From Gossypium raimondii (Eukaryota; Streptophyta; Magnoliopsida; Malvales; Malvaceae): 64,000 nt of DNA. The stretch spans positions 59,835,371 through 59,899,370 of the forward strand of contig NC_068567.1 in the NCBI RefSeq assembly GCF_025698545.1, in the 5' to 3' direction. The position numbers were made by a program, and so were the translations under genes. Below, piece by piece: positions 1,523-46,351 of this stretch. Positions within the stretch are counted from its first letter, which is position 1; the number at the start of each line of letters is the position of its first letter. The notes under the pieces were generated by a model. That model was not told the DNA's origin. It worked only from the letters and a program-made list of their open reading frames with translations, and made no database searches.

Positions 1523-4500
1523 TTATAACTTCTGCGATGTTGGCATTGCTAGGGAAACTCCGCTGCCGCTAGGTAAATCCTTCCATTGTTGAGTAACTGT
1601 TTTAATCTGGGTGAAAAAGTTAACTCCAGCCTTGCCTGCAATTAAGAACGAGCTTCTGAGTCAAACGATTGGTTGAAAAGTGGGGGTTATCAGCAGATGG
1701 CAAGTTGAAGAACTATGTTAGTTATTATGTATATATTACCGTAAAAGTTAAGGTCGCCCGCGAAAGATGCTTTATTGCCAGTAAATGAGAAAAATGGCAA
1801 GGGAACTGGTATGGGGACATTGATGCCAACCTAAATACAATCAAAACATATTAATGATTTGAACTTTCAAAGCAACAAAGAAATGACCTTTCAGTTAATC
1901 CTATCATGTTTCGTAAGTGGTACTTGTATGAGTTATGTAATTGCAGCTCTGAGCAATTTTCAATATACCCTACTATATTTGATCCACAGTTTTACCTGCC
2001 CGGCCTCAACCTCTGTCTGGAATTTCCTCGCTACAGCACCGGATGTAGTAAATATAGAAGCACCATTACCATATCTGAAACAGAGCGCAACTCACAAGTG
2101 AGACAAACATTGATGCATAACTTAGGATGACCAAAAGAGAGTCAGATTCGGGATGTACTTGTTTCTGTTAACAATGTTTAAAGCGTCTTCCAAGCTGTCA
2201 GCCTGAACATGTGGCATGAAAAGAAGAAACAGTCAGCAATGCTAATCAATTAAAAGTTTGATTAGCTAAGAAACAGAGAGGGAAGTAACTCACCTTCATG
2301 CAAACAAGAACTGGGCCGAAGATTTCCTCCTGCACAGGCCAAAATATAGTCAAGGTATCTTCTATGAATGTTCAAGAGTCATTCTTACCCACTCCTGGTA
2401 TTTTCATGACCACAATTTAAACAATGCGTTACAAGTCATAAACAGAAATGAATACCTTATAGCATTTCATGTCAGCTGTGACACCAGTTAAAATTGTCGG
2501 ACCAATAAAATTTCCTTGCTCATATCCCGGAACCTATTTTGTCACTCATAGATAGTTAGTAACAGGTTTTTGTTGAGAAGTTCAAAAATCTAGTTAGCAG
2601 CAAGGAAACAAAGACCTAACAAGGACCATACCAACCCACTTCAGAAAGATATCAATAAACCAATCAGGGAAGAAGAGATGGAGGAGGTGGAGGAAAGATC
2701 TTAGCTTAGGTACACCAAACCATTAGGATTTTGTAATAACTCATTCTCTCTGGATCTTATTATATTCTATAAATATTCTTCAATCTCTGCTGCCAATAAG
2801 GGCCCAAGACAAATCCAGTTTTAAGTGGTTCCAAAATATTCAATGATTTTATGCGCTTTATCAGGATTTTTCAATCTTGAAGATGGAATATACTATCTAT
2901 ATGATGCCACAAGTAAAAAGTTAATTGAATAGGGAAGAAATATTAAATACCACGACATTTCTCCCATCAAGCAGTAGTTTTGCACCACGCTCAACTCCAG
3001 ATTGAACTAACCTGCATATTCGTTCTTTAGCCTGTAAAAGCAAAAGAATTCCAATGAACAAATGAAAACATCAAGGATCCAAACAAATGAGAAGAATGAA
3101 AAGAAAGCATTAAAAGGGACATCAGAAATGGTAGATTGAGGTCATTAGTCCCCATCCCCCTAGATGGAGTCAAGTTGGCTCAAGCTACAACCTTTTTGCT
3201 GGAATTCCCAGCTTCAAGGCCAATGTTTTTGATTATCCGAATAATATGTTATATCAGTCGCCTTCTGGAAAGAACCTTATAAGTATAAACCTATTCACTC
3301 AAATAACCTGATCATAATGAGTGATTGGGCTCATCCCTGCATCACCTCGTGTAGTTTATCAGATATTTCTGGATTATTCTGTCTTTTTTTTAATAAAAGA
3401 AGAGTCTGGGACGAAAGAGAAGAAAAAAGGGAAGAAAGATATGCTCTACGAAATTATACAACCCTGTGATGGACCTGATACCTTGATACAGGTAGGCCCA
3501 GACCTAGGCCTAGGATAAATAATAGATTTCACGTCGTCCTCCCAGAGAATTAGGGCTTTTCAAATTGTCAGAAAAAAAAAAGAAAAGCTTCGGCATGATT
3601 TCTACTATATTTAGTGAGAATTAGAGGCATGTTAGCAGTTGTCCAGAAAAGGTGGGAAATATCTTGAACATGCAATACCTGTTTGCTAATCACTGGACCA
3701 AGGTCTGCATTGGGTTCAATTCCAGCATTAACTTTAAGACCTTTGGCACGTTCAACCAGGTCATTCAACCTGGAAAGTTCAGGAACCCCCTTAATCATAG
3801 CTTCCCAAAATTACAAGAAGACAGAGGAAAAACACAATACCATGATTCAGAGTCACCAACAAAGACTATTGTGCTAAGTGCCATGCACCTTTGTCCCGCA
3901 GCACCAAAACCAGCAGCAAGTAGAGCATTTAGTGTAGCATCCTTGTTTGCATCAGGCATGACAATGCCATGATTTTTGGCCCCCATATTGGACTGAGAAA
4001 AATATTTAATTGAGAAGGAAACTTAGTTCAACTTTAGAAAGTCATATAAGTTGTTAAGCATCCAAACTATTACTAATCAGCAAGTTGGAGAGGCCAAACC
4101 TGAGTATAAGGAAATAGCAAATTGTAAACTTAACTGATGTGGATATGGTAGCTTAACAGAAGTGATCATCTCACTAGGAGATAAATCATGTATTGCTTAT
4201 AATGTAAGTTAAATGATACCTGCACACGTTTTCCTTTAGCAGAAGCTCTTCCATATATGTGCATGCCAGCCTTCAAAAAATTAAAAAGAAAACATCAAGA
4301 AGAATATAACCAAAATACTGAACTGCTTTGTGAAACATAAATGCCTTTTCATGAATCGCAAAAAGAAGTTTAGGACAATAACAGTCATATCACAACAGAA
4401 ATAGCCATGGCAATTTACCCATGAAGTACCAAAAGATACTATATAGGCAAAGGAAGATGTCTAAGGTGCCGGAGAAAATTAAACATGAAGGAGACGATGC

Positions 4501-7190
4501 ACATGATAAAATAGTTTACATCTTGAAAACAACTAGGGACATCAAAGTGAGGGGAAGTCAAAATTTAAGACTTCATAGTGTTAGACGTGAAGAGTTGATC
4601 CTAGGAGAAACAAATGGCAAGACCTACTTCATTGAAGACATTAAAAAATGTTATGAAAGAAGCGAAGAATGAATTTCTCATATTTGGTCCTGCATTGGTC
4701 AAAGAATCTTTGGTACTTCACAAAGTTGTTACATCAGGTTATCACAAGCAATTTTAGGAGCAAAAACCAAAACAATTAAAGAAGAGAACTATTTAGAACT
4801 CAAATTTCTGAAAGGTCGCAATGATAGTCATCTGTGTGCTTTGGACACAAAAGGCATACTTACAGTATTAGAACCAACAAATGATATAGCTCTGATATCA
4901 TCATCATCACAAATAGCATTAACAATGTCCTGCCACAGAAAAAGACATTAGAATTTTTATGGTAGAATCAATTAAATGAAACATTATACATTTATGCTAC
5001 TTATACAACATTGAAGATAAATAAAGATAAATAAAAATATGTGTTTTTGGCCTGCAGATGGTAATCAAACTGTACATTTACTGAAAAATTATTACTTCGA
5101 TATTCAAAGTGACATTTAAAGAATAGCAACTATGCAAATAGATGTATATATTAGAAATAAAGATAAATAAAACTGTGGACTTCATAAAATCATGTTAATG
5201 AGGAACCTACATTGGTGCCATGAACTATATTTAAGACACCCGGGGGCAGACCAGCTTCAATTGCTAACTCAGCCAGCATTATGGATGCCCCTGGAAAGTA
5301 AAAAAAAATGGCATTTTAAGAAAAGAGTTGGAGAGTAAAGTGAAGTCATGTAAGAACAAAGGAACGACAACCAAGTTGTCCTTTTCTTATGTAACTGAAA
5401 AAATTAAGGTAGTAACAATAGTAATTACAAGGAAAACTCAAATGATAATGTCCCACCCATGTATGGCACATCAACATCCAAATAAGATCTTTAACGACCA
5501 GCCACAATAAAACAAGCTATAGCAACATTTTGTCCTCCAAGGATGGACACATGACAACATAATGAGTGAAAACAATGCCCCAGATACTACATCATACAAT
5601 TATTAGGTTGAACTCACCAGGATCCTTTTCCGATGGCTTTAAAACAAAAGTATTACCACATGTAACTGCGACAGGGAACATCTGCAGTAAAATAAAAAAA
5701 AAACCATATGTTAACTTCTCTCTTGTATGGATTTGATAAAAACGGCCTTTCTGGAAGTAGGCAACAACTTACTACCAAAACTAGGAAGAAGCAATAAAGT
5801 TTATACTTTACCATCTATACAATCAATATTAGTGAAGAACCAAACTGCTTGGTATGAGTTCCTAAGTTTATGAAGAAAAATAATTGCACTAAAATGCTGA
5901 TTAATGAGAAATGAGAATCCATTAAAGTTCATAAGCCCGAAATTTAATAGGGGGACAAAAAAGTATAAATTAGAAATAGATAGCCAACAATTGCTATGCT
6001 GTGAAAATTGAAACTACTATGTATAAAATGAAGACTTACCCATAAGGGAATCATTGCTGGAAAGTTGAAGGGACAAATCCCAGCACAAACACCTAGTGGT
6101 TCTCTAACACTATATGTATCGATTCCACTAGCTACATTGGGGACATACTCTCCCATTTGCAGGGTTGCCATTCCACAACTATGTTCCACCACCTCTATAT
6201 GAAAAAAGTCCAGAAAATAAAACAAAAAAGGAAAAGGAAAAAAATATTAATCTTTAACACTGTTAAGGTTGACGATTTCTGCTACCAACTCAAACAGTAC
6301 ATTGAAGGATATAGATACCAACCAAGTCCCCGAAAGACATCTCCATGAGCATCCTTCAATGTCTTGCCCTGTTCAGTTGTAATATTCTTGGCCAGTTTAT
6401 CCTAAAAGCAAAATAAAGATTGAATAGATTCATTAGCTAAAAAAGCATCTATACAAAAAACTTACTACACAAAGAAAAACCTGAACTGAGCTCATGCTTT
6501 ACCATATCCCTACGAATAAGCTCTTGGAGTTTGAACATAATACGCTGACGAGTTGTAATTGGGGTATTTCGCCATGACGGGAAAGCTTGCTTTGCTGCAG
6601 CCACTGCAGCTTTGAACTCTTCATTTGTAGTTAAAGGAATTTGTGAAACAACTTCTTGCGTCGCCTATTTAATTTTCCAAACTAACATATATTACAATTA
6701 ATTCCAAGAGCTGAATATTCTTATCTATAAAAAAGATTAGGATGAGACACTCACAGGGTTTATAACATCAATGGTTGATGTTGATTTCGAATCAACAAAA
6801 GCACCTCCTATAAGATTAGGAACCCTCTGTATAAAACCCAATCCGATCAATACATAAAAAAGAATTGAATAAATACCATTTTGCATTAAAAAAAAGGGAT
6901 CTCGATAGAACGAAAAATACACGTATCATTGGAAGAACGATAAATAGAAGCAAAAGCGTTATACCGAAGGATTACGGTGATTAAAAGAAGATTCAGTAGC
7001 AGTAGAGAAACGAGGACTCGCAGAAGCCAAAACCTGAGGCCTTAAAGCCGGTAAATTCTTCACTGCAACAAAAGGGAACAGCAAAATAATCAAAAATTAA
7101 ACAAATAAATGAAATTCGTCCTTTTTTTTCTTTTAATTGATTTTGGTTTTTAAGTTTTTGTTTACCTTTTTGAAGTGAAAATCGCATCAT
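1523..7190 (-). CDS. ALDH6B2: Methylmalonate-semialdehyde dehydrogenase, ALDH6 family, copy A (19 exons)
   Basis: This mitochondrial CoA-acylating aldehyde dehydrogenase converts malonate and methylmalonate semialdehyde to acetyl- or propionyl-CoA in valine and pyrimidine breakdown. Coding exons (minus, 5' to 3'): 7190-7166, 7062-6965, 6826-6755, 6664-6503, 6401-6323, 6194-6040, 5681-5618, 5290-5211, 4929-4864, 4270-4220, 3992-3841, 3769-3679, 3031-2951, 2533-2456, 2329-2294, 2202-2159, 2074-1996, 1830-1740, 1635-1523. All borders are GT..AG and phases agree. The sum is 1617 nt (538 residues), the usual plant length. The start MMRFSLQK plus a basic, Ser-rich stretch looks like a mitochondrial presequence. 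Catalytic features are present: oxyanion-hole Asn189 in CPFNFP, Lys212 in LKPSEKD, nucleophile Cys320 in GQRCMALS, and EEIFGPV at 419-425. It is the downstream partner of a tandem pair, and I see no defect. The symbol rests on the Arabidopsis orthologue name. Confidence 0.95.
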
Positions 7191-8517: not shown

Positions 8518-11500
8518 TTATACATCACTGCTAGTGCCTGCTGCTACATCCTTCCATTGTTGAGAAACTGTTTTAATCTGGGTGTAGAATTGAATTCCTG
8601 CCTTGCCTGTGTGAGTGAGCCAGTCCCACATGAATACACAAATAGTTTATTAAAAAAAAGAACAATAATATTTCATTATCTCATCTTGATCAAGGGAGAA
8701 ATGAAATATAACAAGCTTCCTAAGGATGTAAAATATACCATCGAAATTGATATCACCGGCGAACAATGGCTTTAAGCTTGTAAAACAAGAAAAAGGGAAT
8801 GGGGCTGAAATTGGAATATTGATGCCAACCTGTGTCAAATACACCCATTAAAAGAAGATCAACCATTTTTTATAACATATAGCCAACTCATGGGGACAAT
8901 GGCTGCTGCATTACCTGCCCAACCTCAATCTCGGTTTGAAATTTCCTTGCTGTTACACCTGATGTAGTAAATATTGAAGCTCCATTGCCATATCTGTAAG
9001 AGGAACGTATAAGGTAAATAAAAAGCTGCAAAAGTTTTGTATGATGAGGGAATCTAGGGATGTTGGAATTGGAACATTACTTATTCCTGTTAACAATGTC
9101 TATAGCCTCTTCTATGTTGTCTGCCTGTGCAACGATAAGAAAAAAAATACATATATCAGCATGTCTTACATACACAACAAACTTTCCCAATTGGAGCGTC
9201 ATACAAACTGAAACAGCAATAAGTAGCAAACCTCCATGCACAGGAGAACCGGGCCACAAGTTTCCTCCTGTATCAGCTAAGAAATTCTCATTAAGTATTT
9301 TGATTGAATATAGACTTCAAGTCTCTACTTATATGAGAAATCGTATCTTTGCAAGGAATGTTTATACCTTGTAACATTCCATGCTGACCTTGACATTGGA
9401 TAAGATTGTTGGGCCAATGAAGTTACCATGCTCATACCCTGGAACCTACATTATTCATAAGGTAACCATTTGAACAAGGCCCATTTGACTTTTCTCAAAT
9501 TTCGAAGTAAAACTGCATTTCTGGACATGCATCCTAAAATTTTCTACAGTATAATACCAAAGATCACCATAACCACTACCAACTTAAGCATGTCACCATG
9601 GTCCATATGCATCACTGGATTCCAAGTTACATGGAGAATCTTGGACATTCTTTTGTAGCATAACTTCAGAAGCTTGAAAGGTAAAACATTCTAAGAAATA
9701 AACTGGACTAGAAGATGACCATTTTTATGAGTTAACATTTCACCTTCTGATGTTCAGTATTTTTTTAGTTTCACTGTAATTTCGGTGGATTATAGATTGC
9801 AAAGACTTGAGCTTCAGCATGGGGAGGTCAAGAACTAGTATTCACAACTAATTTGAGATAGAAGCATGCAAGGTCCTAACAATTTTTTCCCCAATGGCAT
9901 TGCCAGAGTCTTAAGTCGTGAATGAATGTGGTGAATAATTAAATTTGCCTTCATGTAAGAAGTGGGGCAGGGAGAGGGGGTTCGTGGCAGAGGAAAATGC
10001 TGCCTCCGCTTGAGTGGGCTGAGGTACAAAAAAGAAGAGATCAAACTTCCGCAACTATATTCTGATAACCCCAATGACATCTATCACAATAATCCCTTTA
10101 TAACCAGAGTCCAAACTCCAAACAAGCAGAGCATCTGCCCTTGCTTGAAATTTGCGTCAATATCAGCTCATAAATACAAGAAAGCACCAGAAAATCTTAA
10201 AACCTATGAGATCATAGATATTCAAGGAAAAAGTATCATTTCTCTTTTCAATTAAAGCTACTGAGGCCAAGAAAAAAAAATCCATAATACATAATTCAAG
10301 CAGATCATAGATCAAACTGATAAAACTCAAAACAAAATGAAATACCAGAATATTTCTCCCATCAACTACTAGTTTTGCACCACTGTCAACACTTGATTGG
10401 ATCAATCTGCATATGAGTTCCTTTGCCTGTCAACCACCACGACCATTTAAGAATGTGGTTTCATAATTGAGCAGGACATGCAAAAATACATGGTGTTCAA
10501 CAAGCAACTCACACATGCTCCAAACCAAAATTTTATAAATTGTTTCACCTCAAGCAGCACAAAATATCTCAAAGGAATTCACTTCCAAATCACCATATCG
10601 GCTTCATATAATTAATGAAAATTTAGTTAACCATAAATTAGATTGTACCTGCTTGCTAATCACCGGACCAATGTCTGTATCGGGTTCTGTTCCGGGTTGT
10701 ACTCTAAGTGCTTTCGCACGCTCCACCAGTTTATCTTCCCTAGGAAAAGTTCATGCAAACATCTTTTATACCAATGCATCTCAAATCAATCACATAACTT
10801 CAACCTAACATTAGAAAAGGAAGAAGAGAGAACAACAAGAGAAGGGAGAAAGGTTGGCGGTTCTAAATATGAAATAAAAATAAAAATAACATCGACAGAA
10901 AACCTAGATGCCTCTATTCTTGGTAAGTCTATACTTGTTTTTCCCATTAAAATGCTCTTGCTATTTAGGAGTCTTGGCTGCAGATACCAGAAAAATAACT
11001 TTGTGATGGTGTAGGCTATTTTCCCCTTTTTTAGAAAACAGCCAAACTCAGTTTTACAATGAGTTTTACTATTGAAAATAATTTAAATTAAAATAAATAT
11101 GTCCACACCATTATTTGGTGTAGGCCAAAGCTGGGACTGACTCTTTTCAGCCCAAAGCCTTAACTTTATATGAGGGAACAAGGGAAAATCCTCACATATG
11201 TGAGCATATATTTCCTCATCAATCCAAATGAAAAATAAATGAAATAAACAGAAGATTGGAAGATTGAAAACCTCTCCTTGATATATTAATAAGTAAAATT
11301 AAAATGTAAAAGAAAATAAGGCCACTGATAAGGTGACTTACAGCAATCAGATAACATATAGAGAGAGATGTATTAAGAATAGTTAAGAGAAAGAATGATC
11401 ATAAATCAATGGTTGTTAGAAAATGAAGCTTAAGACCTCAGAAAATATAGCTCACAAAAATATAAGCAAGAAAACAGCTACCATGGAGTCAAGCCTCCAA

Positions 11501-14500
11501 CAAAGACAACTGTACTTAGTGACATGCGCTTCTGCCCTGCCCCACCAAAGCCAGCTGTAACTAGAGCATTTAGTGTAGTATCCATGCTTGCGTCAGGCAT
11601 TACAACTGCATGATTTTTTGCTCCAAAATTGCACTAAAACCAACAATAGACAAGCAAAATTAACAACCTTTCAGAAAAAGATAAAACAGAAAAATTAACA
11701 TCAAACTCAGATAATTTGCCAGGGCAAGACAGCTACTAGAATGTTTGTAGAAAAATAACAGATTGGTTTCCCAAAAAGTACCTGAACACGCTTTCCTTTA
11801 GCAGAAGCTCTAGAATACACATAAGAACCAGCCTAGTAAAAGTTAAAAACATGCAAAACAGTAATTAGTAAGAAGTACATACTAATACATGGTCAAAAGC
11901 TCTATGAGAGATCAATAACCAGCAAAGATTTCAAAATTCAAATGACCTATGGGAGAGAACAACAAGAATACTTCCATGATTTTGGACACAAATTGAACCA
12001 CAAACCTTTGATCACCAATTATTGATACATAAGTTGCATCTATTTACAGTTTCAAGGAGTTCAACAGAGCAGGGCAAGAAAACTATATGGATTTTGCTAT
12101 GTTTGCCAAATCTATAAATTCATTCTAATATTATCCATTGTTCTAAACAGAAGAACCTCCTCTTTCTATCATTAAGTATTCTCACATTCTCAAGAAACCT
12201 TTAGGTTGCCACTGTTCACATTTCCTAGAAGAAGAAAAAAAACTTATCAAAATACAGACCTGTCTTAAGGATTAGATGTCATGACTGTACTTTTAGTAGT
12301 TGTCAACCCTTCAGAACTCTTAACACATAAATCCATAATCAACCATGTTAAACCTAACTTAAGAAAGACAATTTTTATACGGATAAAACATACACAGACA
12401 AGGCAACATGCCAGTTCCTAGCAAATGAGAATATAGGTCGCCGGACATGGCAATAGAGATTTTTTAATTTTTTTTATATAGAAGTATTCAATGAGAACAT
12501 AAATATTGGTACTTTTCATTAATATATAATCAAATCGTTTGTGAACTTAAAAATTCTTAATTGGACTTGATCTAAATTTTTAATATATAATTAATTATTT
12601 TACAAACTAAAAGTTGGAATTAAACCAGATTATAGGATCGAAACAAATTGAATTGTGCTATTTTGCCGAAATGAGTCAAGATTGGATTATCTTGTTTCCT
12701 TCTCCCAAAAAGTGTGTTTCATGTCTAGACAAAAATTAGAACTCCCCCTCGTTCTCCCTTATTCTTCTGTCTATATCCGATCGTATTCTCTCTGCCTCTG
12801 TTCTACAGATTTTGGCAACTATTCATCATTAAAGGCATCATTTTTCCCTTCCTCTTCTTCTCTATCTATTCTTTCTCATTCCCTATCTAAGCTCTTATTC
12901 TTTCAAGAACACCAGACTTCATTCTGCCTCTCTGCTCCAGGTATCAGAAACTAGCTCATCATTGTCACCCATAACACTAATGTGAACCTCAGTGTTTGAG
13001 CTCTTTTAACCCCCAAAATTTTTATTTCCCTCATCTCAATTTTTCATCCTTTGTCCACACATCTGTAGACTGTGTTGGACCATGTGCACTTCAATTCTTT
13101 TCAATGTGTGGAATTGTTGCCAACGTGTTTTGCTGTGTTTCCGAATTTCATCACAGACAATGGTACAAGACCAGAAAGAGGGGATTTCCCGTGTCCATGC
13201 TTAACTTGCCACGATGATCATAAAAGTAAACAGGAAAAAAAAACATAATGTGAAGGTAATAGTAAGTAATGACTGAATAACTTACAGTACTTGGACCAAC
13301 AAAAGATACAGCTTTGATGTCATCATCATCACATATGGTACTAATGATTTCCTAAACAAAATCAAAGGGAAGCACAATAGAACCCAGTAATAAGTAAGTG
13401 AAAATAGAGATATTGCATATAGTACAACGCCAAATAATCAAAAGGTTAAAATATACTCCAAGTTCCTGTACTCTGCATATTTGGAATTAGTCCCTCTACT
13501 TTTATTTCTAGGAATTTTAGCCCCTCTACTTTCTGGATTTAAAAATTTAGGTCCAATTGTTAACACTATTAAAATTATTCTATTAAATTTGCTGGCATGA
13601 CAATTTGAAATTAAAAAAATACCCACTTGATAACCATGTAACCGAAAAAGTGACATAATAAACATGAATTTAATAGAAGAATTTGAACAATGTTAACAAT
13701 TGGACTTGCATTTTTACATCGAAAAGGTAGAGGGACTAAATTCCAAATGTTTGAAGAATATAGGGACTTGGAGCATATTTTAACCTAATCAAAATACAGA
13801 CTGGATCATGGAAACGACTAATATGATGGACAAATCAATGTCATAAACCCAACAGAACAGCTTCACTCAATATATTGTTGAAAAAAAAACATTGTTGATA
13901 ATAAAAGAAGGTTGCATGCTTATCCTCTGAAGCATTTCAAGGGATGCTATTAATAAAGGATATGAACCAATAAACAACTGTAAGTCCAAACTCAAAAACT
14001 TACATTGGAGCCATGAACAATATTTAAGACACCATTAGGCAGGCCAGCCTCCACTGCTAGCTCAGCAAGCATCACAGCAGCCCCTGAAAGAACATGAGAA
14101 CATATCAGTTATACACTTTGAGAATAACAGCCTTATGTAGGAACAATGAATCATCAAATAAGATTTGCTTAAAATAGGAGCTTTATCTTCTCATTTGTAA
14201 ATATTTAGCTAAAGCTGTAGAATGCTTCAAATGTTTGAGTTCAGATTGAGAAACAATAATAAGTCATGCCAAAGCTCACTCAAATTTGCAACCATGCTCC
14301 ATATGCATTTCAAAGCTCTTATCATTTTAACCTTCTAAGTATGAAGTGGCTTCAACACTTTTCAAGTTCTTAGCAACAACTGACGTTTTTTTCCCTATAC
14401 AGTAATGAGTCAAATCTCCATTAAAGAATGCATCCAAATGTAAAAGGAAATTATCTCAATGCAATCCTACCACGTGAGACTCGAGGATTTCACCAGTGCT

Positions 14501-16840
14501 TAAAAGAAATGGCTCTTGTTATATACATGACAGGTCTGCACATAATAGTGTACATGTTCAATGCCTTACCTGGAAAGCAAGTTTCACATATCTGGAATAG
14601 GATTTTTAACATCATTAAGAACAAAGATAAAGTTACTACAATTTCATGTAGGCAAATGGTACAAAATAGCTATCACCTGGATCCTTCTCTGACGGCTTTA
14701 GTATAACAGTATTACCACAAGTAACTGCAGTGGAAAACATCTGCAGGTAAAAAAATCAAAAGGAAAGTGAATGAGGGTAAACTAAAACAACTAAATTAAA
14801 ATGTTTCTATCAGTTATCATTGATCAGAATGTGAAACCCAGGAGGCTAGTCTGCTACTGTTCTTGTAACCGATTAACAAAAGTAAACATCAAAACAAAAG
14901 AACCTCTTGCATTATGAAGTTACGTCAAACTCTGAAATCAGTTTCATTCTTTTAGTAGAGGATTATAAGTTTATAACTACTAAGTAATCCTATTGCTCAT
15001 AACTACCAAATAATCCTATTGCTCATAACAACTAAGTAATCCTATTACTCATCAAGCTAAGTAAACAGATTGATATTAGACAACCATACTATGAACTTGG
15101 ACTAAAAGCAAACTAAGCTTACCCATAAAGGGATCATAGCTGGAAATTCGAAAGGACAAATACCAGCACAAACACCAAGAGGCTCTCTAATGCTATAAGA
15201 ATCAACTCCATTAGATATATTGGAAACAAATTCACCAATTTGCAAATTCGCCAATCCACAAGCATGTTCAACCACCTCTACCAAGGAAAATCAAAAACTA
15301 TAAAGCAAACCATTACTAGAAGGTTTATTCAAAAAACATACTAAATGAGAAAGAAAATTATAAGACATTAAAATAGAAAAGAGATACTGACCTAACCCAC
15401 ACAAGACATCATCGTACGCATCCTTCAATGCCTTCCCGTGTTCATTGGTAATGTTCATAGCAAGCTTATCCTGGGGCCATAATGATATTTCCCATCAATA
15501 AAAGATAAATGCCAATCAAGAACAGAACATATGGAATTCTAAGTATTTACAATGTCTCTCCTAATGAGCTCTTGAAACTTGAACATTATACGCTGTCGGA
15601 TGGTACTTGGAGTGTTACGCCATGATGGGAAAGCCCGCTTTGCTGCAAAAACTGCTGCTCTGAACTCCTCATTTGTAGTCAGAGGAACTTGAGAAACCAC
15701 TTCCTGTGTTGCCTATGAAGAATTATAAATGAAATGATTATGAAAAGGAAACCCAATCATCTATTTATAACTTGACAGTCATGAGTAACTAAAATGGAAA
15801 CTTTTACGGGTACTCACAGGGTTTATAACATCAATTGAAGCAAATGACTGTGAATCAACAAATCTGCCCCCGATGAGATTGGGAACCCTCTGACATGCAG
15901 CACCAAGATAGTTTAATTCCAATGAAATTTCAGAGAAAAATCCAATAAGGAGGGAGGGAGATTATAGAGTGAAGACAGAAGAGAATAATTCATTTAAGCA
16001 CTAAAGCTCTCCCTCATTCCAAGTAGGTGGGCTACAACTTTGTGACCTAAGTGGTGTTGAACAAAAACTAAAGCTTACCTGAGGGTTATGTTGCCTCCAA
16101 GATGGCTCCATAACTGATAGGTAATTGTTTCTTACAGCAGATTTCTGAGGTTTCAATGACTTGTAATTTCTCACTGCAATGCAAGCATGCCATCACTTAA
16201 AATAACAATATACTCCAACGAAACTGGAAAAAGTGAAAACATGAAAAAAGAACCAGAGAGTGCTTTTCATGATGTGAAAAAAAATACCTGACATATTTCC
16301 TTGCCGAAGCTTGGCCTTGACATTATAAACATGCTTTGGTGTTGATAGAAGATCAGGGTTGCTTTGTCTCAGTCTCTTTAGAATTTGCCGAGGTTTTAAT
16401 CCAGCTTCTGTCATTTCTTTTATTAACAAGACTTCTTTCTCAGAAAAACGACGAGCGGATGGATGTTCTGCAATGTCCTTCAAGGGTTCGTGGTTGTGTG
16501 TACCATTTTTAACAGTAAGTACCCACAACCCATCATCCTTTTTACCAACAACTTCAAAGGGACAGTTTGTAAGTCGAGAACCAGTTCTCCTTCTGCGAAT
16601 ACATTCAGCAGCAGACTCATCAATAGGTTTCCTCCTGTTACGATAGACACCTCCTCTGTCACAGCCAAGGACTACCACTTTGTCCCTCTTAGATTGCTTA
16701 ATAGTAACCACATACCCTTGCGATACAGCAAATTCACCAACATGCTGGATAAGTTCTTCACGATCTATAAAGGTCCCAGGTGGAGGAGGAAGCATCTGAG
16801 GCTGTTCATTCAACTCTGAGCTACATTCTATATTCATCAT
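8518..16840 (-). CDS. FAR1-type DNA-binding domain fused to a catalytically dead ALDH6 (copy B, 19 exons)
   Basis: Coding exons (minus): 16840-16288, 16173-16079, 15889-15818, 15712-15551, 15470-15392, 15277-15123, 14740-14677, 14083-14004, 13351-13286, 11832-11782, 11633-11482, 10739-10649, 10426-10346, 9445-9368, 9267-9232, 9124-9081, 8993-8915, 8829-8739, 8606-8518. The sum is 2118 nt (705 residues) with no stop and all borders GT..AG. Exon 1 (184 codons + 1 nt) encodes a FAR1/WRKY-GCM1-like domain: Cys60, Cys93, His115, His117, a basic RRRR patch at 82-85, then a helical region to about 184. It joins at phase 1, exactly where the presequence exon of copy A joins. Exons 3-18 match copy A in length. 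Against copy A, the nucleophile Cys is Arg495 (GQKRMSLS), the oxyanion Asn is Glu364 (CPFEFP), Ser265 is Pro440 and Phe422 is Cys597. Dehydrogenase activity is therefore unlikely; I infer a nuclear or regulatory pseudoenzyme. Alternatively, exon 1 could be a separate gene. Confidence 0.85.
13444..13785. mobile_element. MULE-type MITE in an intron of ALDH6 copy B
   Basis: A 342-bp non-coding element with terminal inverted repeats of roughly 60 bp (GGTTAAAATATACTCCAAGT at the left, its near complement at the right). It is flanked by a perfect 9-bp target duplication TAATCAAAA (13435-13443 and 13786-13794). The 9-bp duplication points to Mutator-type mobilisation. It sits in the intron between exons 8 and 9 of copy B, clear of the splice sites. 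Confidence 0.85.
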
Positions 16841-19130: not shown

Positions 19131-19402
19131 TAATTTAAAGAAGCTCCCACGTGGACGCGCTTTTGCTACAGTAGCTCCTGAAAAATAATTTCGAGTAGAC
19201 GTTTCTGAGCAAATAGTGTCAAAAACGCTTTAAGCAGGATGCTTTGTCAGCAGAAGTACTCAAAGAAGCTCCTACGTAGACGCGCTTTTGCTACAGTAGC
19301 GCATGTTTGGCCTGAGGCTATAAATGATGCAAAATTTTTTCTCAGATTGCATAAGTTACAGCAAAAAAAATTTAGAGAGGCTAAGAAGGATAGAAATTGA
19401 AG

Positions 19403-22275
19403 ATGAGTGAACGTATTAATGTTGTTATTTACTATGATGGTGAGGTTTGCCACACCGAGAACAGTGTTATTTTTTTATCGGAGAATACAGTGCGACTAGT
19501 TTTTAACCAGAACATAGATTTGACAGAACTTCGTAAAAGAATTAGGCGTAAATTAGTCGGAACGACGCCAATGAAAGTTCTGTCTATTACGTATCGATTT
19601 TTTTCTTCTGTTGATCCGGTGACATATGACTCGTTCGACATAAAAGGTGCTCGTAGTTTGGAGGCAATGATGCAGACTCATCTCGTTAGTGGAGCACCCT
19701 ATATTGAGTTATATGTACAATTTACATCGCCAAATGATGCACTTGTGACTAGTGTTCGAGAGGTATATGTGACCCCTGCCAGACACTTGGTTAGTGGGTT
19801 ACAAAACATGGAACAGCCCATGTTTGGTAGCGGTGTGGAATACACAACCCCTGCACAACACTCTATCGGTGGATGGGACATACACCTCGGTGGGTTGATG
19901 TTTGATGCTGGAAATACATACTGGGGAACGGCATCAACTTCTAGTGGTTGACAATCTACATCCAATTGGGGATGTTATGAAACGCCCAGAATAAGGGATG
20001 ATGTACTCCCTACGACGTCCACCGGTGAGGGGACCTCGTACATTGTAGATGATGGTGAGTTAGAAGATGACTCCGATGTAGATCTACCTCGAGAGCCCGG
20101 GCCCGATGGTACAGAAGTTGTATTATTCTCTGAACCAGTGCCTATTCCAATCAAACCTGAAGATGTTGAAAGAGGTTCAGATGAAGAAGAAGATCCACGA
20201 TTCAATGCATACTCACCTCCAACCCACATGCATAATGTCGATCTGTCTGCAGATGATGAGTTGGAGTTTCTAGATCTACCACACCAGTTGCGTGATCGTA
20301 CAAGTTCGGTACTAGATTTGGGTGAATTTGAAGTTGGTAATCAATTTTCCAACAAGGATAGTTTTATTGGTGCTTTGAAACAACATAACATCAATAACGG
20401 CGTTAACTACCACGTCGTTAAGTCCAAAGCTGATAAGTTTGAAGTGAAGTGTGCAGTGTAAGACGGTACATGTTCATGGAAAATCTACGCCTCGTTGAGG
20501 AAAATAACAGGGTTGTGGGAGATTAAAAAGTACAAAGGTCCACATATATGTGCTGCAGGTACAGTATTTAGGGTTTCTGAATAATATTGTTATTATGTAA
20601 TATTGCATTATTTAATGTACTTCGTTTATAGGTATTTCACAAGATCATCCCAAGATGGATTCAGCTATATTAGCTAGCTTGATACTACCCACAGTGAAGG
20701 CAGATCCGAAGACTTCAGTACTGGTATTAATTGCCAATATTCGTAGCCAAATGGGGTACACGCCCTCTTACCGCAAGGCTTGGATAGCTAAGCAAAAGGT
20801 GTTGGAGAATATGTATAGTGGGTGAGATGCTTCATATAATGAAATATGGCAGTAGTGTCAAGTGTTAGAGAGATACGTCTCAGGTTGCATAACAGACCTT
20901 CAAACGGAACATGCGTACTACAACGACCGATTGCTACGTGGATGCCAAGTGTTCAAATGCCTGTTTTGGACCTTTAAGCAATGCCGAGACGTATTTCTAT
21001 ACTGCAAGCCATTGGTACAAATTGACGGTACCTTTATGTTTGGTAGATATACCCATCGGCTATTGGTAGCAGTGGTATAGGATGACAGTGGGAGAATTCT
21101 TCCACTTGTGTTTGTAATAACACCGGAGGAGTCAGCTGATGACTGAGATTTCTTTCTATCTAGGTTAAGGAGGCATGTGTGCCCTCAACCTGATATCTGT
21201 GTTATTTTAGATCGGGGCACCGGCATACTAGCTACAATTAATCGATTGGGAAGCTTATGGCAGCGCACACACCATCGGTATTGCCTAAGGCACATTGCTT
21301 CCAACTACTACAGGCAATATCCATCCAAGAGTGAACGACGACAAGTGATCAACATGGGTATTTAGTCTCTATTAATATAATTTCATTTGTCATTTTAGAT
21401 TTATTCTAATTGAAAGAGTTGTATGTAATATTCGCTATGAACTTATATTGGCAGGGTATGAAATAAATAAAGATTGTTTTCATGAGATGTTGGTAGTTTT
21501 ACGTTCAATTAACGGCGAAGGCACGGACTAGCTTTGTAACATACCTTTCGAACAGTGGGCACAAGCATACGACGGTGGCTTACGATATGGTCATATGACC
21601 TCAAACCTGGCTGAATGCATAAATTCTGTTCTAAAAGGAATGCGCCATCTACCGATAACATCGGTTGTGCGAGAGACATATTTTCGTTTGGCGGCACTAT
21701 TTCCAAAGAGAGGAACGAGTTATGCAGGCCAGATACAGGGAGACCATGTATGGTGCAGTAAGGTAGTGCAAGAAATTAACAAGCCCAAGGCGCGGGTGAA
21801 CACTATGCACACAGTGTGTCATGATCGAGACAACTTATGGTTTCACGTGACAAAGTTTGACAGACAGTACCAAGGTGTTATTGGCGGGCAATATCGTGTA
21901 CACTTGCGAAATAGGACTTGCGATTGTGGGATGTTTGACGCAATTCGTTATCCATACGCTCATGTGATTGCAGCTTGTCAGAATTTTCGTCTAGATCCAA
22001 TGAGCTATGTCGACGAAGTGTACAAATTAGAAAACATGCACAACGTCTGGAGACACGTATTCCCACCAGATGAACGTAAGTGGCCGTCTGTATCGCTTGC
22101 TCCCTTTAAGCTATTACCAGATAGAGAATTGCGTCGCAAACCAAAGGGTCGACCTTGCTCGACTAGAATACATAACAATATGGATATCCGAGAAACAGCC
22201 AGTCAACAGAAGTTGTGCGGATGGTGTAGGAACCTAGGTCATACAAGCCAATCATGCCCAAATCACAATAGTTAA
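19403..22275 (+). pseudogene. MURA transposase of the MULE (decayed)
   Basis: Translation in pieces gives a MuDR-type transposase: an N-terminal acidic module from the ATG at 19403; a FAR1-like MuDR DNA-binding region (about 20340-20560); and the catalytic core with Asp in IDGTF (about 21020), Asp in LDRG (about 21210) and Glu in NLAECIN (about 21610). A SWIM zinc finger follows (CDCG..YAH, about 21920-21970), then a C-terminal CCHC knuckle (CGWCRNLGHTSQSCPN, about 22215-22260). Two introns are suggested, near 20560-20630 and 21360-21455. In-frame stops interrupt it at about 19949, 20459, 20823, 21078, 21142 and 21528, so no functional enzyme is expected. The longest intact part is the C-terminal 226 codons (21595-22275). 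Confidence 0.9.
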
Positions 22276-22601: not shown

Positions 22602-24755
22602 TCAATCTCTGTACCCGTCGGATTTAGTGCCACATGGCGATCGTCGACGGTTACGCGCTGGATTCATCCTTTGTCCAGCTTTTGACGGGGGTTGTGGTTG
22701 CTCCGGTGAGGATTCTGGTTCATCCGGTAGGGGATTTGGCTGTCGGTGTTGGGACGATAAGCCACATTGATAGAATAGATAATGTGGAGGTGTTTGCATC
22801 ACCAACGGCGAAGCTGTTTGAAACCCATACGGTGATGGGGTTTGGTAAAAAGAAGAGCTCCCCGACAGCCTCTCTTGCGATCCCTCGTGCGACGCTGGCT
22901 TATACATCGGCGGTCTACTCGGCGTAATCAAAAATAGAGATGAACCGGGCCATTGACTCCAACCTGCCATAAGACTAGAAAAAGGAAACATATAAGAGTT
23001 AGGATACATAAAAGGGCTAGGATACGCACCTGGCATTATCTGAAAAGGCTGTGCCATGGGTATCGTCGGTTAAACTGCTAGGTCGGGCGACTGTGTCGAT
23101 GCTGTTGTTGGGCTTGGTAATTGTATGGGCGTTGATGATGGGCCGGGTGAATGTCTGGGCCTCGTTGATTGGCTTGCGTCGTCGTCCCTTCTTCTTGGAT
23201 TTAAAGGGCTACGTCGTTCCCTTTGGACACGCAATTACTGCTGCCTCTCCTCTGCCGACAGTAAATACGGCTTGCCATGGATCCTAAACCATGGCATGTA
23301 TTCTGGCACGCACGCTAACTCTGGAATGATGATCGGTTCCCGAGTTAGTATATAATCATACCGATCTTCCCACATTTGGATGTAGTATGACCAGAATCTC
23401 GGCCAATCCGTATGCAATTGTCGTAGGTCGATTTTGTGATGGTCATCCAACACCTCAGGTGCCACGGGAATCGATTGTCGGAATCCAAATTGCCCTAATA
23501 CTCTGTCCGACTGGTGCATCTCCACAGTCGCAAAGTTAACCAATGTGACTTTCACATGCCAAGCGTTTGGATTTTGGAAGTACTCATTTGGAATTACTGC
23601 CCGAATTGTCGGATCCTCGTATGGTGTCTGTCGAAACTATATGACCATGATGGAAATATTAGTTATATACTAAATACTAAATACTAATTGACTATCTCAT
23701 GATGGAAATATCTATTTTATTTAATACTTACTTGTGCTTCCGACTGTTGGTCTAATAGAAGCCGTATATCTTCAAGACAGGTAGGTAATCGAGCATAACT
23801 TATCGATGGTTCCACCTAATTAAATAAATTTTTAGCATTCGATTATATTTTAAATCTACGTAATAATTGTAAAATCTAATATAAAATTTACCTCGTTATG
23901 AGTGGGAATATATACGGGTGGTCCACTTGAGGATGTAAAAATAGAAAGCAAAACCGTGCCTATGACTGCAGTAGTAACAGGAAACCTTCAATTTTCGCTT
24001 TATTCGATCGCGTCGCCCAGCACATCTCCCGGTACAATGTCGCCAACACGGCAGACCCCCAACTAAATTTACCAGCTGCTCGAAAATCAACGATTTTCAG
24101 CAACCATCTTAGATGTACGAGGTTCCGTGACAAGTTCGACATCAGATAACCTCCAATTATCTGAAGAATGTATGCCCGAGCATATCGAATTCTTTCTAGT
24201 TCGGTTGACTCATCATCCGGAATCGAAAATGTGTCTCGTAACCAGCCCATCTTGATCCGACCTCCGTTAATATTCTCCAAAATAGAGCCCAAAAGCTTGT
24301 AGCATACCGCTCCCCAGTCACCAGATTGAACAGACCCGGTGACTACATACCCGTCGACCGGTAATCCCAATTGCAAATTGACATCTTCCAAAGTGATAGT
24401 GCACTCTCCACATGGAATATGGAATGTGTGTGTCTCAAGTCTCCACCTCTCAATCAACGCACTGATGAGTTTCGGGTCCAATTTGCATCCCCGGCCTACC
24501 GTCGCCACGTGCCAAAAACCCGCATCCCACAAGTAATTCTCTACCAACGGAGATGGAGGACCATGCATATTACGGATATAGCATTGCAATATCCGATCTA
24601 CAAACTTTTATTACAAATAATAAAATAATAATTATTTAAAATTGCATAAATAAAAAAATCTTAAATAATATTTCAAAAGTAAATTTAACACTTACCGTTT
24701 TCATTTGTTTGACGGATATATGCTTGTTATCATGACGAATCAATTCTCCGGCCAT
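22602..24755 (-). pseudogene. Plant mobile domain (MAIN-like) gene carried by the MULE, decayed
   Basis: The minus-strand gene starts at ATG 24755 with a short exon (24755-24696). A large exon (24597-23892) then encodes a plant mobile domain: LWDAGFWHVATVGRGCKLD, CGECTITLEDV..LGLPVDG and GGYLMSNLSRN..VHLRWL are typical family blocks. Two smaller exons follow (23815-23732, and from 23636), then a Pro/Ser/Gln-rich tail ending at 22602. Relatives are MAINTENANCE OF MERISTEMS-like proteins, often mis-named 'serine/threonine phosphatase 7 long form'. Defects: the first intron as marked shifts the frame by one base, a TAG at 23962-23960 replaces an expected Trp codon, and a TAA lies at 23237-23235. 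The family is known to travel in MULEs and gypsy elements. The copy is probably inert. Confidence 0.85.
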
Positions 24756-32636: not shown

Positions 32637-34623
32637 ATGGAGATAACTAAGCTAAGGCTTGTTTTTCTCTTTTCTTTTTTTACCACAATTCCAAGGCTAT
32701 GGGCAAATATTGTTGAATTTGATGACTTTTGGAAGCAACGTGAAGAAGAAGCTTGGAAGATTGCCCTAGCATCTTATGAACCGAACCCAGAAAATGTTAC
32801 TAATCACCTGAACTACAAAGTTAACAAGTAAATCTTGTTATAATTTTCTCCTTTATCTCTTTTTTTTTCTTATGTATATTTTAAAAGTTCCATATATTAG
32901 GTATAAGTAAATAAATTACAAATATTAAAATCTAAATCATAGACCTATTGCATGTAACTAATTGAAAATATTCACATGAATTAATTTAGCAAAATGTTTG
33001 GTTTCTCTCATCTACATTATTGTCCATGTGAATTAAAATTTTTCATATTTGTATTCTATTACATTATCACCCGTAATATTTATAAGCTACAATAACCATA
33101 GATAATTAATTTAACGATCAAGTTCTCATAACTCACGTGGATGAGGGCCAAAGGTTCCAAATTAAATTCCCTTAACCATTTACATGATCCTAAATTTTTC
33201 TTGACTTTTATGTTAAAGTGGAGATTAAGTATACCATCTTGGACTATTTGTTGTAGGGCTCTTAATAAAAGAAGTTCTAACAAAATCATTGAATTTAAGG
33301 GTGTTATTACTAATGACACAATAAGATACTTGAGGGGTAAACACAAGAAGTACACTGGTCCATGTATGGCGACTAATCCGATTGATAGGTGTTGGCGATG
33401 TAGAGAGAACTGGGCTGAGAATCGCAAAAGATTGGCGCTATGTGGGCTTGGTTTTGGTCGTAAAGCTACTGGTGGAGATGAAGGAGATTACTATTTAGTG
33501 ACAGATAATTCTGATGATGATGTTTTAGAACCTAAACCAGGAACTTTACGTCATGCTGTGATCCAGAATAAGCCGTTGTGGATCATTTTTGCTAAGGATA
33601 TGCACATCAAATTATCAAAGGAGCTAATTGTTCAAAGCAATAAGACCATTGATGGCCGTGGAGCAAATGTTCATATAGCACATGGATGTGGAATTACACT
33701 TCAATTTGTGCACAATGTCATCATTCATAACATTCATATTCATCATGTTATTGAAAGTCAAGGTGGCCTAATTAGGGACTCTGAAGATCACTACGGTTAT
33801 CGAACAATCGGTGATGGAGATGGGATTTCTATCTTTGGATCATCAAATATTTGGCTTGATCATATTTCCATGTCTGAGTGCCAAGATGGACTTATTGATG
33901 TAATACAAGGTTCCACTGCCATCACCATTTCAAATTGCCATTTCACACATCATGATCATGTAAGCTTTACCTTAAAATGCTCAACTAGCTACACATTTTG
34001 TCATCTAGTTTCAGTAACATACTCTCAAATTATATTTTTCAGGTGATCTTGTTAGGAGCAAGTGACACTTATTCTAATGATCAATACATGCAAGTCACAA
34101 TTGCGTTCAACCATTTTGGAAAAGAATTGATACAAAGAATGCCTAGATGTCGATGGGGATTCTTTCATGTTGTTAACAATGACTACACTCATTGGAAAAT
34201 GTATGCCATTGGTGGTAGCACGCATCCTACTATTATTAGCGAAGGTAACAGGTATATTGCCCCAGATGACCCCAATACCAAAGAGGTAAATGGAAATAGC
34301 TTTATTTAATTTTCTTACCACAATACACATGATGCAATCAAAAATGTATTTATGGTTGTACCACTAATTTATTTTTGTTCATTGCAATTCTGCAGATAAC
34401 TAATAGGAACTATGCACCAGAATCAGAATGGAAGAATTGGGTATGGAGATCAGAAGGAGACTTGTACATGAATGGAGCCTTCTTCAGAACTTCTGGGCCA
34501 CCCTCACCTCCTAATTTGAACTTTAGCGAGAAAGATGTGATCAAAGCCAAGCCTGCAACATTTGTTAGAAGACTCACACGTTTTGCAGGGACTCTTGATT
34601 GCAAGGAATATGTCAAGTGCTAG
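32637..34623 (+). CDS. Pectate lyase, polysaccharide lyase family 1 (four exons)
   Basis: A secreted enzyme that cleaves de-esterified homogalacturonan in cell walls by calcium-dependent beta-elimination. Exons: 32637-32827, 33257-33959, 34043-34285, 34396-34623; all GT..AG, phases agree, 1365 nt, 454 residues, the usual plant length. The chosen ATG (32637) opens a signal peptide (hydrophobic core [11 protein letters not shown], ending about WA, residue 23). Then come the N-terminal pectate-lyase region, the Cys-rich NPIDRCWRC block (about residue 100), [29 protein letters not shown] and DGLIDV, and the catalytic [20 protein letters not shown] block in exon 3. It most resembles the pollen-type LAT59/LAT56 branch, so a role in pollen or tissue softening is plausible but inferred. 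No defect is seen. Confidence 0.92.
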
Positions 34624-40554: not shown

Positions 40555-42515
40555 AAACTGTGATGCAAAATAGCCTTCAGGAGTTGAGTGAGATTTGGGA
40601 TTGGTGAGATGATGAAACCAAGCAGTTGTTCTACTCCAATTACGGGGACTTGCTGTATTTACTTAGCATCAAGGTGGATGAACGATTGTTTCGCGCTATT
40701 GCACAATATTGGAATCCTGCATACAGCTGTTTTACTTTTGGGAATGTAGATTTGGTGCCTACAGTAGAGGAATATACGGCTTTACTGCATTGCCCTAGGC
40801 TTCAGGTTGATAAAGCATATTCCAAAGCCGCATATGCCCCAGCATTTTGGAAGAAATTAATGAGTATTACGGGAATGAGTGAACAATGGATCAAGGCCAG
40901 GATTAAACAGAAGGGCGAGTGTAAATGTATGCCATGGAGGAATTTGCGAGATTTGATCCTAGCACATCCTGATGAAAAAAAGAAGGTTGATGTGTTTGCT
41001 TTGAGTATCTACGGATTAGTGATTTTCCCAAGGGCACTAGGGCATGTTGACGAAGCTGTTTCAGATCTTGTTGATCGGTTGGGCAAAGGGGTCACACCTG
41101 TTCCTGCGATTTTGGCTGAAACGTTTAGATCTTTGAATGCGTGTAAGCGAGCTGGTGAAGGCAAATTTATAGGTTGTGCGCAATTGTTGATAGCTTGGTT
41201 CCATAGTCATTTCTGGAAGGTGAAAAAAGTTTCGTATCGGGTTTTCTCTCAACATTATTCCCCGTTAAAGGAAATAGTGGCTACCTCCAGAAGGGACGAT
41301 ATATCAGAAGAAAATTGGATAGCAATTCTGCAAAATCTTCAAGAGGATGATGTGGAATAGAGAGCTCATTGGTTGATTCTTGATGGAATTCTCTACCGCT
41401 GTGGAAGCTTTGATTGGGTTCCGTTGCTTGGGATTTAGGGAGCCGTTGGATAGGCACCTTTGCTGGTCCTAAGGTAATACAATTCGAGACAGTTTGTGCC
41501 GGCAACATATGGTTTAGCTCAATGTGAGTTCTCGTACCGAGGAGACAATTACAAGAAAAAGGTGAAGGAAATATCTCAGGCTTGGAATCAGGTTCACAGG
41601 ATGAAAATGCTAGTTGTGGGTTCGATGACAACTCTAGAGTATGATGAGTGGCGACGCAAAAGGATTAATGATAACATCCCGGAGTTAAACTTGGAAAGTG
41701 CTCGACTAATGGAAGAGTATCTACAAGTGATCCCATCAGAGTTGGAGATTATAAAACAAGATTTTAAAAAGAGGAATTCAGAGCTTGAAAATAAAATAGA
41801 ACAGTTGGAAGAAGAGAAGATGCACTTGAGGCTAGACGTCGACGTCCAAAAATTAGAAGCTGAAAAGTTAAAGAAGGGGAAAAATAAAGTAGAGGTAGAT
41901 CTCGATAGCTTAAAGACGGACTACAAGAGGTTACGAGTATCAATGAGAATTGCCGAACTGGGAAAGACTTCAGAGCAATGGCGACAGGAAATCCAGGAAG
42001 AAAGAAACAAAGCCGATCAGTGGGAAAGAAAGTCCCGGGAGACTCAAGTTCAGAAAGAGGCCTTAGAGCGGCAGTTTTTAGAAACTCAAAATTATCAAGC
42101 GGACCTGAAAGCTAGAATAACGGAACTCGAGAAATCACTTGCTGCATATAGAAGTCGTAATTCTGTAGTGGAACTAAGGACAAGTCTTTGCAAGATTGAA
42201 GGATTGAAAAAGAGGATAGAAGAATTGGAGTACACATTACAAGGCTGTAGGCAACGGATCGAATCTTTGGAAGGAAACGAAGAGCGTTGGAGGGAGCAAC
42301 TTCATCATTCGCAGAATCAAATTCAGAACATGGATTACATTATGGGCAGAGCTATTGCTCAGGTTCAGGAAGTAGCTGATCATTTGCAAATAATGGCGGT
42401 TCAGGCTAATGTTTTAAGTGTAAAGTACGAACTAGAATCGGATCGGGGTCAGGAGTTAGCTTCATTGTTGAAAGAAGTTAGAGCTCTGAGCATTAGGGCA
42501 AAGCGATATCTGTAA
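40551..42515 (+). pseudogene. Retrotransposon ORF1: DUF7745-like domain plus coiled coil
   Basis: An additional ORF upstream of gag, characteristic of Tat/Ogre elements; its role in the life cycle is not established. The N-terminal part (to 41360) has blocks typical of the plant DUF7745 family, itself similar to plant mobile domains: YWNPAYSCFTFGNVDLVPTV, LALSIYGLVIFP-like, ILAETFRSL and GCAQLLIAWFHSHFW. The C-terminal part (41496-42515, 339 codons) is strongly charged with Glu/Lys/Leu heptads, a long coiled coil. A TGA lies at 40605-40607 and a stop at 41358, with frame changes between 41360 and 41496, so the ORF is broken in at least two places. DUF naming is from memory. Confidence 0.75.
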
Positions 42516-44776: not shown

Positions 44777-44825
44777 TGGAAAACGTTATGACACTCGAGC
44801 AGAACTGCCAAGAGAAAGGACTCCG

Positions 44826-46052: not shown

Positions 46053-46351
46053 CTGGAGATCAGCCCATACGAACCTGGGAGTGAGCTAAACAATTGGACT
46101 GTAGAGTAATGTTCAAAACATTATTGTTATTTTTAGCCTAAGAATGACAAGAAATCCTTTGTGAAGTAGGCTTAAGTCTGAATATCTTTATCCTAATAAA
46201 ATACATCTCTGCATTCATTTCGAGCAATTATTCTTTTATTCTTTCCAAGCAAGTAAATATCTTCCATTTGATTAATTGTTTTCCAAATATTTTTTTATTT
46301 ATAACCTAATTATACAAATAATTATTCATAAATTTATACTTTGCATATTCT

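Follow-up and report, generated by a model that had tools for sequence, protein, structure and literature searches.

A probable ALDH6 pseudoenzyme joined to a MULE-type DNA-binding exon in Gossypium raimondii

What does a gene still do when its reading frame is intact and the catalytic residues of the enzyme that it resembles are gone? The question is raised by a stretch of 64,000 nucleotides of the Gossypium raimondii genome (C3:59835371-59899370 in a genome of 750.8 Mb; the window in what follows), from whose DNA two gene models have been rebuilt. The window carries two tandem ALDH6 genes, encoding members of the methylmalonate-semialdehyde dehydrogenase (MMSDH) family, both on the minus strand. 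The first of them, copy A (1523..7190; 19 exons, 538 residues), is an ordinary ALDH6 gene in which none of the six key residues considered below is changed. Its neighbor, copy B (8518..16840; 19 exons), encodes 705 residues with a computed mass of 77.33 kDa from a coding sequence (CDS) of 2118 nt, stop included, over a span of 8323 bp, and it is a chimera in which a FAR1-like DNA-binding domain (DBD) of the type found in Mutator-like elements (MULE) precedes the ALDH6 part. The explanation that we favor, with reasonable but far from complete confidence, is that copy B is an ALDH6 pseudoenzyme joined to a domesticated DNA-binding module of a MULE transposase, and that its product would work as an oligomeric regulator that binds DNA and may sense a ligand; this confidence belongs to the combined statement, and it gives weight to those parts that can be read directly from the DNA.

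By its overall sequence, copy B belongs to the family. Its ALDH part scores 643.6 bits against the MMSDH model TIGR01722 (cut-off 448.5), so that copy B would be annotated from the family model as a CoA-acylating dehydrogenase, and the MMSDH model, not ALDH16, is its best NCBIfam model in a ranking made without direct comparison to an ALDH16 model. Copies A and B share 352 of 489 ALDH residues (72%), which leaves 137 amino-acid differences, and their exons 3-18 have the same lengths. Exon 2 of copy B (16079..16173), which links the DNA-binding module to the ALDH part, has the position and phase of exon 2 in copy A. Exon 19 (8518..8606) is shorter than its counterpart (89 vs 113 nt). A previous model-made reading of this DNA from its letters alone (the sequence-only reading) had described 705 codons free of stops, frameshifts, and splice defects, and the rebuilt model agrees, with 18 of 18 introns bounded by GT-AG in each of the two genes. 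Copy B also matches in length, and nearly in mass, the G. hirsutum protein GhALDH6B2D (705 residues, CDS of 2118 nt, span of 8324 bp, 77.41 kDa), which in the published tables lies in the same tandem place, 1.3 kb beyond GhALDH6B1D (539 residues) on the same strand (PMC5425181); the small difference in mass shows that copy B is not that very allele. The cotton counterpart of copy A, GhALDH6B1, is listed there as predicted mitochondrial (PMC5425181).

The losses which the sequence-only reading ascribed to copy B can all be read from its codons. In exon 11 (11482..11633), codons 11531-11526 encode K494-R495 in place of an Arg-Cys pair (GQRC to GQKR), residue 495 being Arg (CGC, 11528-11526) where copy A has the nucleophile Cys320 (TGC). 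In exon 6 (15123..15277), the oxyanion-hole residue of the CPFNFP motif, Asn189 (AAC) in copy A, is Glu364 (GAA, 15149-15147). The change of FVGS to FVGP corresponds to P440 in place of Ser265 (exon 9, 13286..13351; codon 13294-13292), and that of EEIFGP to EETCGP to C597 in place of Phe422 (exon 15, 9232..9267; codon 9258-9256). Two further changes can be added to that list: R143 has become C318 (VFRG to VLCG; exon 5, 15392..15470, codon 15401-15399), and R319 has become K494. The C-terminal loop encoded by exon 18 (8739..8829) is likewise altered with respect to copy A in the 26-residue stretch compared. The interval first proposed, 11482-15277, rightly spans the exons of the Asn and the Cys, although it is just part of the gene. 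Two of the lost residues have thus turned into cysteines, C318 (15399-15401) and C597 (9256-9258), for which pairing, metal binding, or neutrality are all possible.

The weight of these changes comes from the conservation of the sites concerned. No variation is found at C320, N189, S265, R319, R143, or F422 in any of the 79 bacterial MMSDHs compared (the best 80 matches of a longer list, minus locus L042; the set is rich in Pseudomonas), and in an alignment with chain 8xxq of human ALDH6A1 the same six residues are found as in copy A. Another entry of the human enzyme, 9izw, has Tyr at the position of the FVGS Ser of 8xxq, which we take to be a patient variant. Over the 221 columns conserved at 99% or more, copy B alone deviates at 31 (mean BLOSUM62 score -0.1) and copy A alone at 6 (+2.7). 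Copy B retains F188, K212, E215, G264, and E420 (copy A numbering), of which the Lys, Glu, and Gly are on the cofactor side. Key residues appear enriched among the changes (6 of 11 scored positions vs 31 of 192 conserved columns, hypergeometric p 0.003), a value that is descriptive only, as the list was compiled from what we take to be the ALDH2 and B. subtilis numbering and all six losses were known beforehand, four from the sequence-only reading and two added. A twelfth listed position, Asn286, is not conserved in the bacteria and was dropped from this comparison.

The roles of the catalytic Cys and Asn in ALDHs have been described (PMC10650815), as well as those of Lys192, Glu399, and Phe401 (PMC8160307). 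In ALDH6A1, Asn replaces the usual Glu base, and the Cys and the other Asn are kept (PMC10650815). In copy B, both of the catalytic residues common to ALDH6 and other ALDHs are gone, together with R143, R319, and two cofactor-side residues, and we regard it as highly probable, judging by these residues, that copy B has lost MMSDH activity; the earlier designation as a likely pseudoenzyme is therefore upheld. Published ALDH numbers were matched to residues of copy A through a motif alignment that we assume to be correct. Similarly, Arg143 and Arg319 are presumably the arginines known from work on the B. subtilis MSDH, for which a literature search found nothing usable.

The key fact for the function of copy B, left out of the sequence-only reading, is its transposase-derived DNA-binding exon 1. 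In copy A, an exon 1 of 25 nt starts the presumed mitochondrial signal. In copy B, its place is taken by a module of 553 nt (16288..16840), a FAR1/AFT-like zinc DNA-binding module with a helical region, which ends in the same phase (phase 1). A search of the same genome with exon 1 gives at least 14 matches: apart from exon 1 itself, there is a contig 10 locus with 66% identity, and 12 further loci have 34-44%. Nine loci of these distant relatives were examined, and eight of them have an adjacent MULE transposase core, whole or partial, the exception being L115; the core was recognized at seven loci by comparison with L114, and at L114 itself by PF10551 (E 1.4e-24). The module of L114 reaches 27.9 bits, above the AFT cut-off. 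C60, C93, H115, and H117 are invariant in copy B, in the L114 transposase, and in a third ALDH6 gene, copy C, described below; we take them to be the C-C-H-H zinc ligands of a WRKY-GCM1 fold. As most of the relatives examined adjoin a MULE transposase core, the simplest explanation of exon 1 is that the DNA-binding end of such a transposase was captured and now serves as first exon. Aldedh is the sole domain detected in the 705-residue protein at E 0.001, with no MULE transposase or SWIM domain, and tblastn revealed no transposase core in the window or in loci L103, L104, L133, and L134. A PDB search with exon 1 gave no match up to E 10, and a plant-contamination search of viral contigs gave seven pattern matches with no relative among them. 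As a separate observation, retention of intron 1 (16193-16287, minus strand) would yield a stand-alone DNA-binding protein with its stop within the intron.

The match at 66% identity belongs to a second MULE-DBD-ALDH6 chimera, copy C (G000:C10:12834142-12850085, plus strand, loci L133-L135; 19 exons, model of 1023 residues). Its first exon aligns with exon 1 of copy B over 178 residues, 117 of them identical, in the same phase and with the same exon series behind it. Exons 4-18 have the lengths found in the other copies, and the last exon is extended by a tail of about 320 residues, Ser/Thr-rich by eye, in a frame with no Pfam match up to E 1. The module of copy C scores 24.9 bits against FAR1 (PF03101, cut-off 28.1). 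Copy C retains the Cys (GQGC), Asn (CPSN), Ser (VVGS), Arg143, and EEIFGP, and it has lost Arg319 and Phe188; the losses specific to copy B with respect to copy C are those of Cys, Asn, Ser (FVGS), Arg143, and Phe422. A tree built from the three copies and 18 of the 79 bacterial sequences places C as the sister of B (support 95.4/99) and has branch lengths of 0.058 for A, 0.271 for B, and 0.321 for C. Because copy C shares the fusion and groups with copy B, the fusion predates the split between them; and because copy C keeps Cys and Asn, their loss belongs to copy B, after that split. Among columns conserved in the 18 bacteria, changes are seen in B only at 28, in C only at 31, and in both at 31, vs 10 in A only, which argues that both chimeras left the constraint acting on the mitochondrial enzyme. 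Copy C agrees in chromosome number, in the strand of the D copy, and in rough size with cotton GhALDH6B3, whose models of 1072 and 1134 residues are listed as predicted nuclear (PMC5425181).

Purifying selection very probably acts on the copy B chimera. Over the 489 codons of the ALDH part, the ratio of nonsynonymous to synonymous rates (dN/dS) between copies A and B is 0.172 (NG86; bootstrap range 0.125-0.221), 0.185 (LWL85), 0.127 (YN00), or 0.147 (maximum likelihood), with dS of 0.90-1.26. A ratio near 1 over this part, named in the sequence-only reading as a sign against its proposal, was not found (0.13-0.18 for A-B). Between B and C, at dS of 1.2-2.1, the ratio is 0.12-0.18 in the ALDH part and 0.105-0.122 in the module, and these low values indicate that both halves have been held by selection, with the limit that the A-B and B-C ratios are averages that combine the periods preceding and following the loss of catalysis. 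The intact frame had also been offered as an argument for selection; selection itself is borne out by dN/dS, but the frame alone is a weak argument, as it is also inherited from a long enzymatic past. The function that copy B has kept would be a non-catalytic one.

These rates have to be weighed against a recent decay, in which copy B would have been a normal enzyme until lately and would now be an early pseudogene, its frame open by chance. Copy B does evolve faster than copy A: with the 79 outgroups, a mean of 56.7 changes can be assigned to B and 22.8 to A (p 1.5e-4). In simulations of neutral evolution, 40% of genes are still free of stops at 0.02 substitutions per site and 15% at 0.04. 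With 0.37-0.6 substitutions per site, about half of the A-B dS, neutral simulation gives 11-15 stops in the ALDH part and no run free of stops (0 of 1000 for each rate), and copy B has no stop there. Asn189 cannot become Glu by fewer than two nucleotide changes. Among the six key codons, those of R143, N189, S265, and F422 differ from copy A at two positions and those of Cys and Arg319 at one. Moreover, the published G. hirsutum homeologues GhALDH6B2A and GhALDH6B2D differ over the whole gene by dN 0.0100 and dS 0.0388, a ratio of 0.258, the corresponding value being 0.2314 in the catalytic copy and 0.4422 in the GhALDH6B3 pair (PMC5425181). Those rates imply merely about 16 nonsynonymous and about 19 synonymous changes, which departs from neutrality (Fisher p about 4e-5, with counts reconstructed from the rates and a published A model of 825 residues). 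Copy C, similarly fast, is likewise constrained. Together, the dN/dS ratios, the stop simulations, the homeologue rates, and the two-step change from Asn to Glu speak against a recent decay, which we consider improbable.

Equally improbable, in our estimation, is a repurposed pocket, in which Glu364 and the new cysteines 318 and 597 would give copy B a different chemistry or let it bind a metal or ligand. It is true that C318, C597, and E364 are replacements specific to copy B at otherwise invariant sites, and that the cofactor-side Lys, Glu, and Gly are retained. Positions 318 and 597 lie, presumably, in or near the active site of other ALDHs, a placing for which we assume the ALDH2 numbering. 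This dependence on assumed numbering counts against the idea, as do the lack of a known relative for comparison and the heavy change in the C-terminal loop.

Slightly less probable still is that the gene gives two products, exon 1 a small stand-alone DNA-binding protein and the ALDH exons a separate cytosolic one. The frame of exon 1 is open into intron 1 until a stop (a stop-to-stop frame of 229 residues, 16882-16193), and exon 2 has an internal ATG ahead of the ALDH part. However, the phase-1 end of exon 1 and its GT donor fit exon 2 exactly, copy C is arranged alike, and published models have a length to match, with 705 residues and a CDS of 2118 nt in the G. hirsutum D gene (PMC5425181) and 713 residues in Populus (PMC4409362). 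Finally, although a single genome is the basis here, a sequencing or assembly artefact is most implausible, since the odd residues are spread over many exons with intact frames and normal splice sites, among 137 differences from copy A, and since copy B agrees in length and almost in mass (77.33 vs 77.41 kDa) with the D protein of G. hirsutum (PMC5425181).

Genes resembling copy B have been listed before. As compared through published tables, GhALDH6B2D, GhALDH6B2A, and PtALDH6B5 stand, like copy B, in tandem with a predicted mitochondrial ALDH6 of 539-542 residues (PMC5425181, PMC4409362). They are listed as ALDH6 members, with no mention of lost catalytic residues or of a DNA-binding first exon in the portions of the articles used here; the terms "FAR1" and "catalytic" are absent from the cotton text (PMC5425181) and "cysteine" and "DNA-binding" from the Populus text (PMC4409362). 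In Populus, the tandem duplicates PtALDH6B3 (542 residues, mostly mitochondrial votes) and PtALDH6B5 (713 residues, most votes nuclear) have Ka 0.162, Ks 1.441, and a ratio of 0.113, and PtALDH6B7, of 958 residues, is listed as a pair with PtALDH6B5, which is expressed chiefly in root (PMC4409362). In grape, VvALDH6B3 (539 residues) and VvALDH6B5 (571 residues) are in tandem, VvALDH6B7 has 1031 residues, and the exon lengths of the ALDH6 genes are reported as near-identical save for the first and last exons (PMC3280228). Melon has CmALDH6B1 (1043 residues, nuclear) and CmALDH6B2 (537 residues; PMC11510909); Arabidopsis and rice have one ALDH6 each (PMC7823795), and in the portion of the bean study used here PvALDH6B1 is the only ALDH6 named (PMC10915231). 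VvALDH6B7, PtALDH6B7, and CmALDH6B1 resemble copy C by size only. Taken from tables and not from sequences, these gene sizes suggest an old eudicot family that has been lost in several lineages. GhALDH6B2A has been reported to rise continuously in leaves under salt (PMC5425181).

Two known systems resemble one half of copy B each. Human ALDH16A1 is likewise an ALDH fold without catalytic residues whose protein has been kept (PMC10650815). It belongs to another ALDH family, whereas copy B has known ALDH6-specific relatives. To our knowledge, ALDH16A1 has no DNA-binding module. The plant FAR1/FHY3/FRS factors have a MULE-related zinc DNA-binding module and generally combine FAR1, MULE transposase, and SWIM domains (PMC8599713). 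Exon 1 of copy B encodes such a module as well, but there it scores below the FAR1 cut-off and its partner is the fold of a metabolic enzyme. Compared with copy A and human ALDH6A1 (8xxq), copy B is without nucleophile and oxyanion Asn, and its first exon is replaced. In the best-ranked titles of the open-licence literature, no description was found of a MULE DBD joined to ALDH6 or of a dead plant ALDH6. ALDH pseudoenzymes and MULE-derived regulators are each known; what seems new, as far as the papers searched here go, is that both are joined in one selected protein.

Several observations weigh against a selected DNA-binding pseudoenzyme. Together with 14 in-frame codons that precede it, exon 1 scores 20.7 bits against FAR1 (PF03101, cut-off 28.1), and 17.3 bits against the AFT zinc-domain model (cut-off 21.6), and AlphaFold without an alignment gives a poor model of the module (pLDDT 49.2, pTM 0.32). 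Within the ALDH part, the highest dN/dS values, 0.28 and 0.29, are found in the two 70-codon windows over copy A residues 252-391, a stretch that holds both the Ser and the Cys. The local picture is mixed, as codons within three residues of the listed motifs have a dN/dS of 0.075 vs 0.19 elsewhere, with dS near saturation. No type of 705 residues is seen for melon, bean, or Arabidopsis in the portions of published tables and texts used here (PMC11510909, PMC10915231, PMC7823795), so that the copy B type may be dispensable over long times. Lastly, the predicted location is cytoplasmic for GhALDH6B2D and mitochondrial for GhALDH6B2A, the latter on a different model of 825 residues (PMC5425181). 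A related proposal, the release of the whole ALDH region around the active site, was not supported: the 79 near-motif codons differ at 30.4% vs 27.6% elsewhere, and their dN/dS is the lower of the two values given above.

Further frames with domain matches lie elsewhere in the window. Upstream of copy B, at 19394-22275 (plus strand), there is another MULE remnant. One of its frames matches DBD_Tnp_Mut at 20.2 bits, which is below the cut-off, and a different frame encodes a SWIM zinc finger. This element was considered as the source of exon 1 and is not supported, no second exon-1 module or L114-type core being found elsewhere in the window (E up to 1). A plant mobile domain frame (PF10536, 152 bits) is found at 23960-24607 (minus strand), and part of a pectate lyase domain (PF00544, profile positions 30-143 of 211) is encoded in a frame at 33132-34046 (plus strand). 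Further along, a DUF7745 (plant mobile domain-like) frame at 40608-41360 stands ahead of frames like those of a long terminal repeat (LTR) retrotransposon at 42948-49499 (plus strand), with Retrotrans_gag, RVT_3/RNase H, and Integrase_H2C2.

The history that would link these observations for a DNA-binding ALDH6 pseudoenzyme may be told as follows. ALDH6 was duplicated in tandem, and a MULE DNA-binding module took the place of the first exon; the fusion came first and the loss of the catalytic residues in copy B later, and both stages are extant in one genome as copies C and B. The copy B protein would no longer enter mitochondria and would bind DNA through exon 1. ALDH6A1 is listed as a tetramer (PMC10650815), and in copy B the ALDH fold might serve as a dead scaffold on which tetramers form, copy C perhaps among their subunits, and might also sense NAD(H) or an acyl-CoA. 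Copy B would then act like a transcription factor and not as a dehydrogenase, and it would offer a concrete case of a metabolic enzyme turned into a gene regulator; taken by itself, and judged from sequence, we give such a DNA-binding regulatory role about an even chance.

A wider and frankly speculative extension, which we hold to be unlikely, is that in core eudicots MULE-DBD-ALDH6 chimeras form a small nuclear family, in which the catalytically competent copy C type would make acyl-CoA (propionyl- or acetyl-CoA) at chromatin sites selected by the module, and the dead copy B type would be a regulatory or targeting subunit of its tetramers. If this were true, the chimera family would couple the breakdown of branched-chain amino acids to gene expression.

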